Shown piece by piece: positions 7,947 through 36,268 of a stretch of 41,633 bases of DNA (position 1 is its first letter; every line of letters begins with the position of its first letter). Location: assembly GCA_021850635.1 (NCBI GenBank), contig JAJZLM010000003.1:1-41633 (forward strand), written 5' to 3'. Under the pieces are notes generated by a model. It searched no databases. It was not told the DNA's origin and was given only the letters and a program-made list of their open reading frames with translations. The stretch comes from Nanobdellota archaeon. Its GTDB lineage: Archaea > Nanobdellota > Nanobdellia > Parvarchaeales > Parvarchaeaceae. The position numbers and the translations under genes are program-made.

Positions 7947-8354
7947 ATGGAAGATAAATACGTCTACGACGAGACCGTTAGGATATACGATACAGACGCG
8001 CAAGGTGTAGTGCACTATGCTGGTTATTATAGGTTCTTTACTGATGCATTGGAGCAGTTCGCCAACCAGAAAGCGAAAAGGATGTATCCTCTTGTAAACG
8101 AGAAGGTATGGTTTGTAGTGGTAGAGTCCAACGCGAAATATTATAAATCTGCTAGGGTTGGTGACAAGCTAAAAGTAGGATTGGTTCCTACTCAACTCTC
8201 TAGCAAGGCACTGCGTTTCGATTTTGATATAAGGCGCGGTGAAGATTTGCTGTGCGAAGGTTACATAGTACAGGTAGCTATAGACAAGGATAAATGGAAG
8301 GCCACAGAGATACCTAAAGACGTGGTCGAAAACATATTTCAGAAGAAATCTTGA
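7947..8354 (+). CDS. acyl-CoA thioesterase (YbgC/4-hydroxybenzoyl-CoA thioesterase hotdog family)
   Basis: VRIYDTDAQGVVHYAGYYRFF hotdog catalytic motif. Confidence 0.88.
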   Translation: MEDKYVYDETVRIYDTDAQGVVHYAGYYRFFTDALEQFANQKAKRMYPLVNEKVWFVVVESNAKYYKSARVGDKLKVGLVPTQLSSKALRFDFDIRRGEDLLCEGYIVQVAIDKDKWKATEIPKDVVENIFQKKS

Positions 8355-8995
8355 AGCTTCTTGTCATCTATGTTCTTTAATGTAGCCCACGTGCTGCGTA
8401 TGTACTTCTTGTATTTTTTGTCGTGTATTAGCCCGTTTGCTTTTATTATACTAAGAAACCTTATCGTTCTAGGATCAGACGGATAACCGCTTCCAAAATC
8501 GTACTCGAGCTCCTTCTTTATGGAAGCAACCTCTCTTTCTCTAAGTGCTTTTGCCAGTATAGACGCAGCGGAAACCTCCACGTAGTTTCTATCTGCATAG
8601 TTTTCAACTATTAGGTCTTTTCCCGGTATCTTTTTTTCCAAAAACGCTTTTATTTTCTTGGTATTTGCGCTAGGGGAGTCTATTATGACAGTATCGCCTA
8701 CTAGGAAGTTTGCTATTTCTATCATCTTGTCAAGCTCCATTAGATTCAAGTTTGTTCCGTCCTTGTATCTGGTATCTATAGACTCTGGTTCTATCTTCTC
8801 TGTCTTGTAACCAGAAGAATTCTCAACTATAATTTTCTCTAATTGGTATATCCTGCGTATGCTAAGAAGCTTAGAGTCCTTTACTCCAGCGGCTTTCATC
8901 CTCGCTGCAACATCCGGTTCAAGACTCGCTCCGGCTACTATAAGCGGACCTATGACAGGGCCCCTACCAGCTTCGTCTATACCGATTCTATTCAT
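8339..8995 (-). CDS. rnhB: ribonuclease HII
   Basis: IGIDEAGRGPVIGPLIVAG, YKDGTNLN, AASILAKALRE, GSGYPSDPRT. Confidence 0.95.
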   Translation of the reverse strand: MNRIGIDEAGRGPVIGPLIVAGASLEPDVAARMKAAGVKDSKLLSIRRIYQLEKIIVENSSGYKTEKIEPESIDTRYKDGTNLNLMELDKMIEIANFLVGDTVIIDSPSANTKKIKAFLEKKIPGKDLIVENYADRNYVEVSAASILAKALREREVASIKKELEYDFGSGYPSDPRTIRFLSIIKANGLIHDKKYKKYIRSTWATLKNIDDKKLQDFF

Positions 8996-9320
8996 CTTTT
9001 ATACCTCTTGGTTTTGCCGTTTGATCCGACCTGTATCTTGCATGTCCGAATTGTATTATCATTTTTATCCCAAGTCGATCTAATCCAAGAGGTATATCGC
9101 ATGCTCCGTACGTGCTGCCTCCCCAAATGAATACTTCAGCTCCTGAATTCCTTTGTATAAAGTCAGCCATCTCCAGTGCGTGCATCTTGAAGCCGTCCGG
9201 TATCTGTATGGCGACCTTTTTGTAACTTTTGGATTTTATATAATCTATTATATAATCGAAGTCTATATCGTAGCTGTCACATAGCATTTTAATGCCCTCG
9301 TTATCAAGCTCGTATTTCAT
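8988..9320 (-). CDS. dph2: Dph2-type diphthamide synthase, N-terminal part (split gene)
   Basis: KKVAIQIPDGFKMHALEMADFIQRNSGAEVFIWGGSTYGACDIPLGLDRLGIKMIIQFGHARY matches Dph2 domain 1; ends just after the FGH(S) motif; overlaps rnhB start by 8 nt. Confidence 0.8.
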   Translation of the reverse strand: MKYELDNEGIKMLCDSYDIDFDYIIDYIKSKSYKKVAIQIPDGFKMHALEMADFIQRNSGAEVFIWGGSTYGACDIPLGLDRLGIKMIIQFGHARYRSDQTAKPRGIKDE

Positions 9321-9395
9321 ATATAACCAACACAATTTGGAACAATATTTAATAAGTGTTCGGTATTAATATCTTATACATAATGGAAGATTGCA

Positions 9396-10077: not shown

Positions 10078-10851
10078 ATGATACCAGCAAAGAGCAGATC
10101 CGACTTTGTAACGTCTTTGTATTCTGGGATAGCACTCAAAGGAGTGTTGAAATGGCCTATACTACCAGTGTTCATAGCGTTGTCAGCTTCCTTATTTTTG
10201 ATAGTTTACGTCGGTTTATATTCTCTTCTCAACTTAGGCATAACTAATCAATTCGTGAGGGGGTACACAAACGTCTATCCATATTATGTGGTCCCATCAT
10301 CGCTCGCTCTAGTTGCACTGGCTTTCTTTTTATATTTTTATTTATTATCGCTGACGCTCGAGATAAAAGGGATGCTAGATTCCAAAGTACATAGAGGGAT
10401 GTTTACTATGATGGTAGCCACACTGTACAAATACCCGAAGTTCCTGGTAGCCAGCGTGTTCCAGTTGTTCGTCTTCATAGGCGGATTAATTTTGTTCGTT
10501 ATACCTGGTTTTTATCTAGGCACTAAGACTCTGTTTTTTTCCGTCGCAAGCTATAGCGGAGATTTTACGCTGTATGGAGCACTAAAGGAATCCAATTTCA
10601 CTGTGAGTGGTTCATTCTTGAAGTGCTTGTACCTTCTTATCGCATATTTCGCTATATTCGTAGCTTTAGTGTACACAATATCCTTTGCCGATCTATCTGC
10701 GATGTGGGATATCTTGTTTATCAGCGTGATAGTATCTTTTGTTTCTATATCATTCTTGTCCAGTTCGGATACGCTGTACTATATCATAAAGTCCCAGAGT
10801 ATGTATAGAAGGTCCCCGTTGATCAGGCAGTTTCTCGGCAACCCTATCTAA
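10078..10851 (+). CDS. polytopic membrane protein of unknown function
   Basis: 257 aa with multiple hydrophobic segments. Confidence 0.75.
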   Translation: MIPAKSRSDFVTSLYSGIALKGVLKWPILPVFIALSASLFLIVYVGLYSLLNLGITNQFVRGYTNVYPYYVVPSSLALVALAFFLYFYLLSLTLEIKGMLDSKVHRGMFTMMVATLYKYPKFLVASVFQLFVFIGGLILFVIPGFYLGTKTLFFSVASYSGDFTLYGALKESNFTVSGSFLKCLYLLIAYFAIFVALVYTISFADLSAMWDILFISVIVSFVSISFLSSSDTLYYIIKSQSMYRRSPLIRQFLGNPI

Positions 10852-11229: not shown

Positions 11230-12702
11230 ATGGACAATGGTGAAAAACTGCTAGAAGCTTATATAAAGTCGAACAACATTGCAAGTCACCACATCTCGTC
11301 TTTCGAAGTTTTTTTGGATCAAGGCATACAAAAAATAATAGACAGCGAAGGCATGATAGAACCAGTTATAAAACCACAAGGGGTAAATAACTTCATAATA
11401 AAACTAGGCAAGGTTACGATCGGTAAGCCAGATGTACTGGAAGCAGATGGAGTACTAAGACAACTCAATCCAATGGAGGCTAGAATAAGGGATCTTACTT
11501 ACGATGCACCGATGGTGCTGACAGTCTCCTACATAGCGGATAAGAAACAAATAGCGGAAGAACAGGTCTCTATAGGCAGAATCCCCGTGGTCGTAAAATC
11601 TAAGTACTGCAATCTTCATGGCCTGTCTAGTGAGGAACTAGCTAAGCTCAGCGAAGATCCAGACGACCCCGGCGGCTATTTTATAATAAACGGCACTGAA
11701 AGAATAATAATAACCACAGAAGATCTTGCGCCTAACAATATCTTAGTCAGCAAGGAGAATCAAGAAGGATTCGTGTATTCAGCTAAGATATTCGCGGACG
11801 CTGAAAATATAAAAGTGCCGCATTCTATACAATTATCCAGCAGCAACCTACTGTATATAACGTTCGGGAAACTGAAAAAGGTGCCGATTTTTACTTTGAT
11901 TAAAGCATTGGGATTCACAAGCGATAGGGAGATCATAAAGAAGATAGCTCGCGGTGATGACGACATTGAAAACACAATAAACATAAACCTTTTGGCTTAC
12001 GATCCAGGCACGGAAAAAGAAGCTTTGGAGACTATAGGAAAATCTCTGCATTCAGTGCATCCGATAGACACAGCGTCTTCAAATATAGATGCTCTCCTGC
12101 TGCCTTTTATAGGTAAGGATGAGAAGTCAAGGAAATTAAAGGGAGAATACCTGATGTATGCTATATCTCTTTTACTATCATACGCTATAAATAAGAAAGA
12201 GGTAGATAAGGACCACTACTCCAATAAAAGACTCCACGCTGAGAACTACAATCTAGACATGCTATTCAGATTCGTGTTCAAACAGATACTAAACGATGCG
12301 AAATACAACTTTGAAAGAGGGATACGAAAGGACAGGATACCAAATCCAAAGCACATATTTACTTCTGACCAGCTCACTTCAAGGTTAAGGTCGTCTCTAG
12401 CTACAGGCCAGTGGGTCGGTGGAAGGGTCGGAATAACGCAACATCTTAACAGAAGGAGTTTTCCGGATACAGTCTCACATCTTAGAAAAGTAGAATCGCT
12501 TCTTACATCTAACAGAGAGAACTCAAGGGCTAGAGACCTACACGGGACCCATTTCGGAAGATTCTGCGCTACAGAAACCCCAGAAGGTCCTAATATAGGT
12601 CTGACAAAAAACATAGCAGTGCTTGCTAAAATATCCGAGGATGGGATAGACACAAAGGACGTGATGGAAAAGATAAAGGAATACGGAGTGAAATCTATAT
12701 GA
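11230..12702 (+). CDS. rpoB2: DNA-directed RNA polymerase subunit B'' (Rpo2N)
   Basis: GYFIINGTERIIITTEDLAPN, RLRSSLATGQWVGGRVGITQHLNRRSFPDTVSHLRKV, LHGTHFGRFCATETPEGPNIGLTKN. Confidence 0.96.
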   Translation: MDNGEKLLEAYIKSNNIASHHISSFEVFLDQGIQKIIDSEGMIEPVIKPQGVNNFIIKLGKVTIGKPDVLEADGVLRQLNPMEARIRDLTYDAPMVLTVSYIADKKQIAEEQVSIGRIPVVVKSKYCNLHGLSSEELAKLSEDPDDPGGYFIINGTERIIITTEDLAPNNILVSKENQEGFVYSAKIFADAENIKVPHSIQLSSSNLLYITFGKLKKVPIFTLIKALGFTSDREIIKKIARGDDDIENTININLLAYDPGTEKEALETIGKSLHSVHPIDTASSNIDALLLPFIGKDEKSRKLKGEYLMYAISLLLSYAINKKEVDKDHYSNKRLHAENYNLDMLFRFVFKQILNDAKYNFERGIRKDRIPNPKHIFTSDQLTSRLRSSLATGQWVGGRVGITQHLNRRSFPDTVSHLRKVESLLTSNRENSRARDLHGTHFGRFCATETPEGPNIGLTKNIAVLAKISEDGIDTKDVMEKIKEYGVKSI

Positions 12703-14501
12703 GTTTCGTTTTCGTGAATGGAGTTCTTACCGGTCAGACAGACGAGCCTCGTAAGTTAGTTAAGAACCTGATATCGGATAGAAGAGAGGGTAAACTCACG
12801 CAGAGTCTCAATGTACGTTACAGAGAGGAAACGGACACTGTAGTCATAAACACGGACGGCGGCCGCCTAATCAGAGCTCTCATAGTAATCAAAAACGGTA
12901 AGCCACTGGTCACAAAAGAGGACATAAACCTGTTAAGCGACGGACACCTTACATGGGACGACCTCGTAAAACAGGGTAAAATAGAATACTTAGACGCAGA
13001 CGAGGAAGAGGACGCTTACATTGCATTAAACGAAAACGAATTAACACAAGAGCATACTCATATGGAGATAACTCCCTTATCCGTATTCGGTACACAGGTT
13101 TCTATGCTTCCTTTTGTCAACCACAGCAATGCACACAGAAATGTTACTGCTGTGAAAAGTGTACAACAGGGAGTCGGAGTATACTCAAGTAATTATCTGA
13201 TAAGGATGGACAACGATTCTATGGTAGCTATAGACCAACAGATACCGGTGGTTAAAACTAAGATGTATGACGAGCCTTCCTTCAAAAACCATGTTTTCGG
13301 TCAGAACATAGTCGTAGCAGTGGTATCCTACTTAGGATATAACATGGACGACGCTGTCATAATAAACAAAGCTTCTATAGACAGGGGACTGTTCAGGTCC
13401 ATGTTCTTCAGGCCGTATAAAATAGAAGAGACCAGATATATAGGAGGACAGAGCGACAAGATAATAGTACCAGACAAAGACGTAGTGGGGTACAGATCCG
13501 AAGATGCTTATAGGTTCCTCGATGAAGATGGGATAGCTTTCCCGTCCGTAGAAGTGGACAGTGGAGACGTCCTAATAGGCAGAGTGTCTCCTCCAAGGTT
13601 TATATCCTCTATAGATAAGTTCAGACTAGGCGTTCAGAAACAGATAGAGACGTCTGTCGAATGCAGGACTGGAGAAGGAGGAATTGTGGACAACGTTTTC
13701 GTCACGTCTACGTTCGACGGTAATAAGTATGTATCTTTGAAAGTCAGGCAGGACAGGCGCGTAGAGATAGGAGATAAATTCGGTTCTAGAAGCGGACAAA
13801 AAGGCGTGGTCGGCATGCTTCTTAACGAGGAGGATATGCCTTTCACATACTCTGGTGTGATTCCAGATCTAATATTCTCACCGTATTCATTGCCTGCTAG
13901 AATGTCTATGTCATATATGCTAGAGCTTATAGCTGGTAAAGTAGGCGCACTCGGTGGTAGATATGTTGATGGCACCCCATTCATAGGAGAAGACGAAGAA
14001 TCGCTCAGGAAAGAGCTAAGTTCGTATGGCTTCAGAGAGGATGGAGTAGAGACTATGTATAATGGTATAACAGGAGAAGAGATGAAAGTCAGGATATTCG
14101 TCGGCGACATGATGTATATCAGGCTGAAACACTTCGTCTCTAACAAGATACAGTGGCGTTCTAGAGGGCCTATCCAGCTTCTTACTAGGCAGCCAACTGA
14201 AGGAAAATCAAAGAGCGGCGGACTTAGACTTGGAGAAATGGAGAAAGACTGCTTTGTTGCTTACGGCGCAGCGCTAGCGCTAAAGGAGAGGTTCGATTCG
14301 GACAAGATATCTATACCTGTATGTTCCAAATGCGGTCTCATCGCAGTATATAATGTGCGCAAGAAGACAGGATATTGCCAGATCGATGGAGAAGAAGCGC
14401 CTATAAAATTGATAGAGGTGTCCGCTTCGTTCAAGATTCTCCTCGATGAGCTCAAAGCGGTAGGCATATACCCGAAGATATTGTTAGGTAAAAAGGTATG
14501 A
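12699..14501 (+). CDS. rpoB1: DNA-directed RNA polymerase subunit B' (Rpo2C)
   Basis: VVSYLGYNMDDAVIINKASIDRGLFRS, GDKFGSRSGQKGVVGMLL, GEMEKDCFVAYGAA, C-terminal zinc finger. Confidence 0.96.
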   Translation: MSFVFVNGVLTGQTDEPRKLVKNLISDRREGKLTQSLNVRYREETDTVVINTDGGRLIRALIVIKNGKPLVTKEDINLLSDGHLTWDDLVKQGKIEYLDADEEEDAYIALNENELTQEHTHMEITPLSVFGTQVSMLPFVNHSNAHRNVTAVKSVQQGVGVYSSNYLIRMDNDSMVAIDQQIPVVKTKMYDEPSFKNHVFGQNIVVAVVSYLGYNMDDAVIINKASIDRGLFRSMFFRPYKIEETRYIGGQSDKIIVPDKDVVGYRSEDAYRFLDEDGIAFPSVEVDSGDVLIGRVSPPRFISSIDKFRLGVQKQIETSVECRTGEGGIVDNVFVTSTFDGNKYVSLKVRQDRRVEIGDKFGSRSGQKGVVGMLLNEEDMPFTYSGVIPDLIFSPYSLPARMSMSYMLELIAGKVGALGGRYVDGTPFIGEDEESLRKELSSYGFREDGVETMYNGITGEEMKVRIFVGDMMYIRLKHFVSNKIQWRSRGPIQLLTRQPTEGKSKSGGLRLGEMEKDCFVAYGAALALKERFDSDKISIPVCSKCGLIAVYNVRKKTGYCQIDGEEAPIKLIEVSASFKILLDELKAVGIYPKILLGKKV

Positions 14502-34260: not shown

Positions 34261-35118
34261 ATGGCAGGAAACGGAACAAATACGGGTCAAAGCGGTTCGA
34301 AGGCTAATAAGCTTAGTTTGGAGCAGGTACTAGGCGCCAGCAATTTCGATGCATATAAACAGATAGCGACGGTCATAGACAGCTACATGCAGACGAAGGA
34401 TCATCCAGGTTTCAGCGTGGTCAACATGGGCAATTATATGTATAACGCCTTGTTGACTATCTCAAAGGAAGTGACGGACCCAGCCCTAGCAGCGATGCTC
34501 GAGATGAAGAGGCACGCGCTTGAAGAATCTATAAAATACAAGACTATCACCAAAGAATCCCTTGACGGGATAGCGAACTATCTTAAGGACTTTCTGCCAC
34601 CTTATCTAGATAAAATAAAAGACAGTATCGGAGCGGACAATCATAAGAGTATGGCTATGGGTATAATGTTGAATATAGGCAAGTATCCCGATGAGTTCAA
34701 GAAGATATCATCGGTTAAAGGAGGAGCCAAGCCTGCTCAGCTTTCGCTTATATTAGATGAATTAAACAACGATTTGAACAACAATGATACTTCAAAAATC
34801 GCATCTTATTACAAGAAATTATCGTCTCCTGAAGTGGAAAAAGCATATGTAAAGTTAGGAATGACTCCGGACAATGCAAAAAAAGCGTTTGTGGACGGCA
34901 ATAAATGCTACGCTGATCTGGTAAATTCCTTGAGCGAAAATGCAAAGATAGAACACATGACCTACGTGCAAAAGATACTTATGAGTGAAATATACAGACA
35001 GAGCAAGAACATAGACGGAGATGCGCTAAAACAAGCGCTCGAGAGCTCTGACCCAGTGAACTACCTGAATATGTTGCCTTTAGCTGTAAAACAAGGCAGC
35101 AACTATTTGGGTGTCTAG
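34261..35118 (+). CDS. conserved-looking protein of unknown function (285 aa, helical)
   Basis: Complete ORF behind a consensus promoter; no recognised family. Confidence 0.8.
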   Translation: MAGNGTNTGQSGSKANKLSLEQVLGASNFDAYKQIATVIDSYMQTKDHPGFSVVNMGNYMYNALLTISKEVTDPALAAMLEMKRHALEESIKYKTITKESLDGIANYLKDFLPPYLDKIKDSIGADNHKSMAMGIMLNIGKYPDEFKKISSVKGGAKPAQLSLILDELNNDLNNNDTSKIASYYKKLSSPEVEKAYVKLGMTPDNAKKAFVDGNKCYADLVNSLSENAKIEHMTYVQKILMSEIYRQSKNIDGDALKQALESSDPVNYLNMLPLAVKQGSNYLGV

Positions 35119-35134
35119 ATAAGAAGCACGATAT

Positions 35135-35821
35135 TCACTTCAAAAGATACGGCTCTAGATCTTCTGCGTTTATTATAGGTTTGTCCAGTTTCTTCGCATC
35201 GTCTATGGCTATCCTCTGACAGGCAGTGTTGATGAATATATCTATTTTCCTGAATTCGTTCAGCCTAGCGTAATCTATCTCGTCCTGCACTACCGTATAC
35301 ACCGATGCTCCTTTTCTGCGAAAAGCTTCCTTGAGCAGTTCTACCCCGTATATCTGCCCGACTTTAGTGGACTCTATGAACATCACGCTCCTAGCATTAA
35401 GTGCTATGCCTATTCCTTGCAGAATACTCTTCCTGTATTTTTCCGCCGTGTTTTTGTCTATGACTTCGACGGTCTCGCTTTCTGGATCTGCATTTATCAC
35501 GCTCTTTCCGTATTTTATAGGTATACCGAGGACGTGAAACATCCCTTGGGTGAATGACAGGGTCGCATCGCAGTCGCTGCAATCTGCAGCGTAAACGTCG
35601 CAACCAAGTATCTGTCCCGGGTATCTTGCTCTGTACATCGAGCTCTTGACAACGAACTCCTTTTCTGGGGTTTTTGCTATAAAGTCGTTCATCTGGTCTA
35701 TGAACTGTATAGAGCATACCACGTTTATCTTGTTATAAGGGGATATAGCGTTCCTTATCTTCTTGTAGAAAGTATCGCTTAGCGCTCCTTTGAACCTTGC
35801 TTCTATAAACATCATTTCCAT
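35135..35821 (-). CDS. dph2: Dph2-type diphthamide synthase, C-terminal part (split gene)
   Basis: YRARYPGQILGCDVYAAD; MFHVLGIPIKYGKSVINADPESETVEVID; VMFIESTKVGQIYGVELLKEAFRRKG; IDIFINTACQRIAIDDAKKLDKPIINAEDLE match Dph2 domains 2-3. Confidence 0.85.
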   Translation of the reverse strand: MEMMFIEARFKGALSDTFYKKIRNAISPYNKINVVCSIQFIDQMNDFIAKTPEKEFVVKSSMYRARYPGQILGCDVYAADCSDCDATLSFTQGMFHVLGIPIKYGKSVINADPESETVEVIDKNTAEKYRKSILQGIGIALNARSVMFIESTKVGQIYGVELLKEAFRRKGASVYTVVQDEIDYARLNEFRKIDIFINTACQRIAIDDAKKLDKPIINAEDLEPYLLK

Positions 35822-35878: not shown

Positions 35879-36268
35879 ATGGAAACCAAGATAGTATTAA
35901 GCGATCCGAAAACAGGCAAGTCATACAATAAAACGCTGTCCTCTGACGAATCTACGTCTATTATGAGTAGAAAGTTAGGTGAGGAGATAGAGCTGTCGTT
36001 TTTAGGCCTTGACGGTTATTCTGCTGTTGTGACCGGTGGCAGTTACATGACGGGAACCCCTATGCGTAAAGAGATAGAAGGCATAGGTCTCAAATCTGCG
36101 CTGCTAAGTGGTGGCGTAGGCAATAGACAGGGGATAAAAAGGAGAAAAAGTGTAGCTGGAAACACTATCAGTCAATTCACGTCGCAAGTCAACCTCAAGA
36201 TAGTGAAGTACGGACAGAAGCCTCTGGAGGAAATATTCTCCGCAAAGACTGAGAGTCAGAATGGTTAA
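35879..36268 (+). CDS. rps6e: 30S ribosomal protein S6e
   Basis: LGEEIELSFLGLDGYSAVVTGGSYMTGTPMRKEIEG; GNRQGIKRRKSVAGNTIS. Confidence 0.93.
   Translation: METKIVLSDPKTGKSYNKTLSSDESTSIMSRKLGEEIELSFLGLDGYSAVVTGGSYMTGTPMRKEIEGIGLKSALLSGGVGNRQGIKRRKSVAGNTISQFTSQVNLKIVKYGQKPLEEIFSAKTESQNG

Follow-up and report, generated by a model that had tools for sequence, protein, structure and literature searches.

Dph2, the enzyme of the first diphthamide step on translation factor EF-2, is encoded in this archaeon by two separate genes, which in all probability (about 0.9) specify a working two-subunit enzyme derived from one fission, with a [4Fe-4S] cluster that would be assembled across two chains. Both genes lie in the window, i.e., the whole stretch of 41,633 nucleotides analysed here, which is all of contig 7 of a 570-kb draft genome (28 contigs, about 90% complete). 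They are 25.8 kb apart, and with their immediate neighbours they are as follows:

8339 to 8995, minus strand: rnhB (RNase HII; PF01351), directly downstream of dph2N
8988 to 9320, minus strand: dph2N, Dph2 domain 1 (110 aa, ATG start; PF01866 positions 2-59, TIGR00322 positions 1-83)
35135 to 35821, minus strand: dph2C, Dph2 domains 2 and 3 (228 aa; PF01866 positions 63-289, TIGR03682 positions 73-296)
35879 to 36268, plus strand: ribosomal protein S6e (PF01092), the divergent neighbour of dph2C

A search of the whole genome with PF01866 gives exactly two matches, which do not overlap on the profile and contain no internal stop: positions 2-59 in dph2N (window 9027-9200, minus strand; E = 2.1e-11) and 63-289 in dph2C (window 35153-35821, minus strand; E = 2.8e-35). 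No full-length Dph2 was found by this search in the about 90% complete genome. The initial annotation had proposed that Dph2 is split in two genes, with the remainder in the open reading frame at 35135-35821, and the complementary coverage of the two matches bears this out. At the sequence level, dph2N matches residues 5-85 and dph2C residues 93-309 of the Methanoperedens protein (6bxm), so that the two are adjacent without overlap, and both also match the Dph2 of Pyrococcus horikoshii (3lzc), the genus for which an alignment had been suggested. The small gene had first been delimited at 8988-9335 (115 aa). Its identification as Dph2 domain 1 stands, whereas the TTG start at 9335 was dropped in favour of the ATG at 9320 (MKYE...), which is the start common to its relatives; the ATG of dph2C at 35821 also agrees with relatives. 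The dph2N product ends in a short tail just past the FGH motif, and the gene shares its last 8 bases with the beginning of rnhB; rnhB is found, as originally described, where the rest of Dph2 would be expected.

The ligands of the [4Fe-4S] cluster in P. horikoshii Dph2 are given as Cys59, Cys163, and Cys287 (PMC11048331). Alignment to 6bxm, 6q2d, and 3lzc places one of the three cluster cysteines, of which each domain supplies one, in the small protein (Cys74 in YGACDIP, in the 110-aa numbering) and two in the large one (Cys74 in LGCD and Cys201 in TACQR), which is the division read initially from the window. These cysteines are invariant in 52 of 52 N-halves, 53 of 53 C-halves, and 10 of 10 intact proteins. 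Each half passes the PF01866 cut-off (33.2), but neither reaches alone the NCBIfam equivalog cut-off of TIGR03682 (202.8 bits), the scores being 57.5 and 145.5; only their sum, 203.0, does. Because each misses the equivalog cut-off singly, each half is to be taken as part of a Dph2 and not as a Dph2. For the same reason, i.e., because each half alone falls below a standard annotation cut-off, a missing full-length dph2 in such archaea gives no ground to infer loss of diphthamide.

The predicted structures agree with this assignment. The AlphaFold model of dph2N (pLDDT 87.9) retrieves Dph2 as its first 14 of 14 PDB matches, the best ones all archaeal, and the model of dph2C (pLDDT 89.6; TM 0.72-0.84 to Dph2 chains) does so for its first 15 of 15. 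At low E, both half models match Dph2 only, and the three-domain fold is recovered across the models of the separate halves. Relative to the archaeal Dph2 homodimer (P. horikoshii 3lzc/3lzd, Methanobrevibacter smithii 6q2d, Methanoperedens 6bxm), the summed domains, the three cysteines, and the predicted fold are the same, whereas here there are two genes, cut after domain 1, each half lies below the equivalog cut-off, and derived Trp and Pro residues are found near the first cysteine (see below).

The split is frequent among relatives. A search of related genomes gives a match in 54 of 55, almost always as two pieces and with the cut at about profile position 59/62; both pieces are present in 29 of the 31 genus and family relatives, the group in which the initial annotation had advised looking for the same arrangement. 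Across the phylum (148 genomes, all of one class), about 115 genomes, i.e., about 80%, have two or more Dph2 matches, a figure that counts genomes with at least two matches, not checked piece by piece. The cut site is identical in the class wherever coordinates were listed, which is not the case for every N-half. Nine of the 148 have only an intact gene, and two have no Dph2. Four others (G032, G099, G107, and G108) have tandem pieces in one frame, with only a stop codon and few bases between them; adjacent in-frame halves are found at L006 108-1208, L060 1894-2955, L061 2387-3499, and L062 2195-3229. At the PF01866 threshold, about 18 genomes yielded one half. In three of them (G102, G147, and G165), the N-half was recovered with a more sensitive profile, either complete or truncated at the edge of a contig. 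Nine genomes have only the N-half, two of them (G033 and G041) rated 100% complete, and about six have only the C-half; a class-wide profile did not find the C-half in the N-only genomes, the one weak match, of 37 residues, being in G035. As N-only and C-only genomes occur at similar rates, single-half genomes are read as metagenome assembly gaps; for the N-only ones, undetected divergence is the other reading.

Two kinds of additional copies were observed. G034 and G182 each have two C-half-like matches. G116, one of the 115 genomes, has an intact Dph2 plus a complete split pair, with profile matches at three loci:

C1:995276-996160, strand not given: Dph2 profile match
C1:741126-741671, strand not given: Dph2 profile match
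C1:803716-803952, strand not given: Dph2 profile match

In the phylogenetic tree (46 sequences, including the three Dph2 structures; row Mj6q2d is the M. smithii protein), all split forms are on one side of a single branch (support 99/92, recovered in 100% of bootstrap trees), and the intact forms group on the other side with the three structures. The position of G169, on a very long branch, is uncertain. Two signature residues follow the same division: a Trp eight residues before the first cysteine and the Pro of CDxP are present in 52 of 52 split N-halves and in 0 of 10 intact proteins. The tree and the two residues fit one fission with a later parting of the halves. That the intact copies of ten genomes are re-fusions was considered and dropped, as these copies group with the known structures, outside the split clade. 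The tandem in-frame pairs, together with the near pairs of halves on the same strand in G040 and G050, suggest that the gene was initially cut in situ, through the gain of a stop and of a new start, and the tandem halves of the four relatives are possibly a frozen intermediate of the fission. Should the single class-wide origin be true, the split would be a useful marker for Nanoarchaeota phylogeny.

The genomic context of each half is conserved in family f1. rnhB lies beside dph2N in every f1 relative (genera g1-g3) whose fetched stretch reaches rnhB, and, among the f1 relatives examined (genera g1-g3), G028 is the only one in which dph2C does not adjoin the genes of S6e and aIF2 gamma. Near the two halves are also two genes without a Pfam match, at 10078-10851 and 34261-35118 (both plus strand); homologues occur at the same places, in many relatives for the former and in some for the latter. 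This conservation bears on whether an intact gene might only look split through misassembly or a frameshift. That the assembly is a draft of 28 contigs would allow for such an error, but a single contig carries both pieces, far from each other and each beside conserved neighbours of its own, and about 30 other assemblies have them at the same two loci, which leaves an artefact with a negligible probability.

A pseudogene or ongoing decay, with dph2 broken, its pieces apart, and neither working, would seem natural for a gene in two pieces in a reduced genome. However, pairs of close relatives give, for each of the two halves, dN/dS values mostly in the range 0.02-0.1; the window's own dph2N and dph2C are saturated at synonymous sites against their nearest relative (G015). 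There are no internal stops, the catalytic cysteines are invariant, the loci are conserved, the split persists class-wide, and the EF-2 target loop is intact with Dph5 and Dph6 kept. Decay is thus very improbable, and the opinion given at the outset, that this looks like a working enzyme, is favoured by the coverage, the invariant cysteines, the purifying selection, the class-wide split, and the presence of the pathway. By these comparisons, the split is old, common to most of the class, and under strong selection.

The rest of the pathway is found elsewhere in the same genome, which contains genes for Dph5, Dph6, and EF-2. Its EF-2 carries LHEDAIHRGPAQ, including the diphthamide histidine that had been singled out for verification. 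The loop LHED(A/S/T)IHRGP(A/S)Q is found in the 12 genomes read besides G035, the window's own included. In G035, a relative of the same class, neither Dph2 half nor Dph5 was found, and the EF-2 loop (L140) reads IHVDHMHRGPAQ, with the histidine kept and its surroundings changed; the whole diphthamide modification has apparently been lost there. In G100, no Dph2 was detected, yet Dph5 and a normal EF-2 loop are kept, and this genome may be a counter-example or an assembly gap.

These data also bear on a changed role of the split enzyme, e.g., ACP transfer to a substrate other than EF-2, or partly separate roles of the halves. The derived W..(G)S motif before the first cysteine of split N-halves, absent from intact proteins, would agree with it, as would the genomes showing one half only and G116, where the split pair and the intact Dph2 could differ in function. 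However, this genome and most others have no Dph2 besides the split pair, which is accompanied, where checked, by Dph5, Dph6, and an EF-2 loop of normal sequence, and the genome without Dph2 and Dph5 has an altered EF-2 loop. A changed role is thus unlikely, if less so than decay.

The working two-subunit enzyme would have arisen by a single cut in the linker that follows domain 1, in an ancestor of most of the class (Nanoarchaeota sensu lato, with Parvarchaeota included), and the halves would then have moved to two fixed places in family f1. The domain 1 protein and the larger one, with domains 2 and 3, would associate non-covalently, two of each, in an assembly shaped like the normal Dph2 homodimer, the form that in archaea cleaves SAM to an ACP radical and modifies EF-2. 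In this assembly, the radical-generating [4Fe-4S] cluster would be held by one cysteine of one chain and two of the other. Such a shared cluster is most likely the mechanism; if true, a two-chain cluster after fission would provide a simple, testable case of a radical SAM-type enzyme that has been cut. The eukaryotic Dph1-Dph2 heterodimer similarly performs the first step of diphthamide formation with two different polypeptides, but there each chain is described as a paralogue of full length that has a cluster motif of its own (PMC11048331), whereas here the two would be parts of one protein.

The large half (window 35135-35821, minus strand) has an extra CxxC (DCSDCD; Cys81 and Cys84) after cluster Cys74, close to it in sequence. 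It is present in 29 of 29 C-halves of family f1 and absent from every other class sequence that was examined. The more specific combination of an obligate heteromer, a 1+2 cluster, a single ancient fission passed on to most of the class, and a CxxC that in this family may form a second metal or redox site is put forward tentatively.

The initial annotation had supposed the split of dph2 to be perhaps undescribed, which is not so. Table 1 of Podar et al. 2013 (PMC3655853) gives DPH2 as split in the nanoarchaeon Nst1 and as missing from N. equitans, and Dombrowski et al. 2019 (PMC6349945) attribute to Narrowe et al. 2018 the finding of split Dph1/2 in some members of the Parvarchaeota, Pacearchaeota, Woesearchaeota, and Altiarchaeota. 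The Nst1 genes (Nst 222-440, PMC3655853) are likewise two in a Nanoarchaeota genome, of a different lineage, and the likeness given by that table is in the two-gene state. By the description in the citing review (PMC6349945), the split reported in 2018 is the same phenomenon and includes the nearest named group of this genome. The named genomes closest to it, with 66-78% identity in the C-half, bear the labels Nanoarchaeota and Ca. Parvarchaeota, and this genome hence falls within an already reported group. The main text of a 2024 survey of archaeal gene fusions and fissions makes no mention of diphthamide. The split Dph2 is thus, by all sequence evidence, real and functional, and already known in kind; what the present analysis adds is its extent, the likelihood that it arose only once, the two signature residues, the control provided by co-loss, and the extra CxxC confined to one family.

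Dph2 is not the only protein in two pieces in the window, as RNA polymerase subunit B is likewise encoded by two genes (11230-14501, plus strand), a split described as common to many diverse archaea (PMC3655853).
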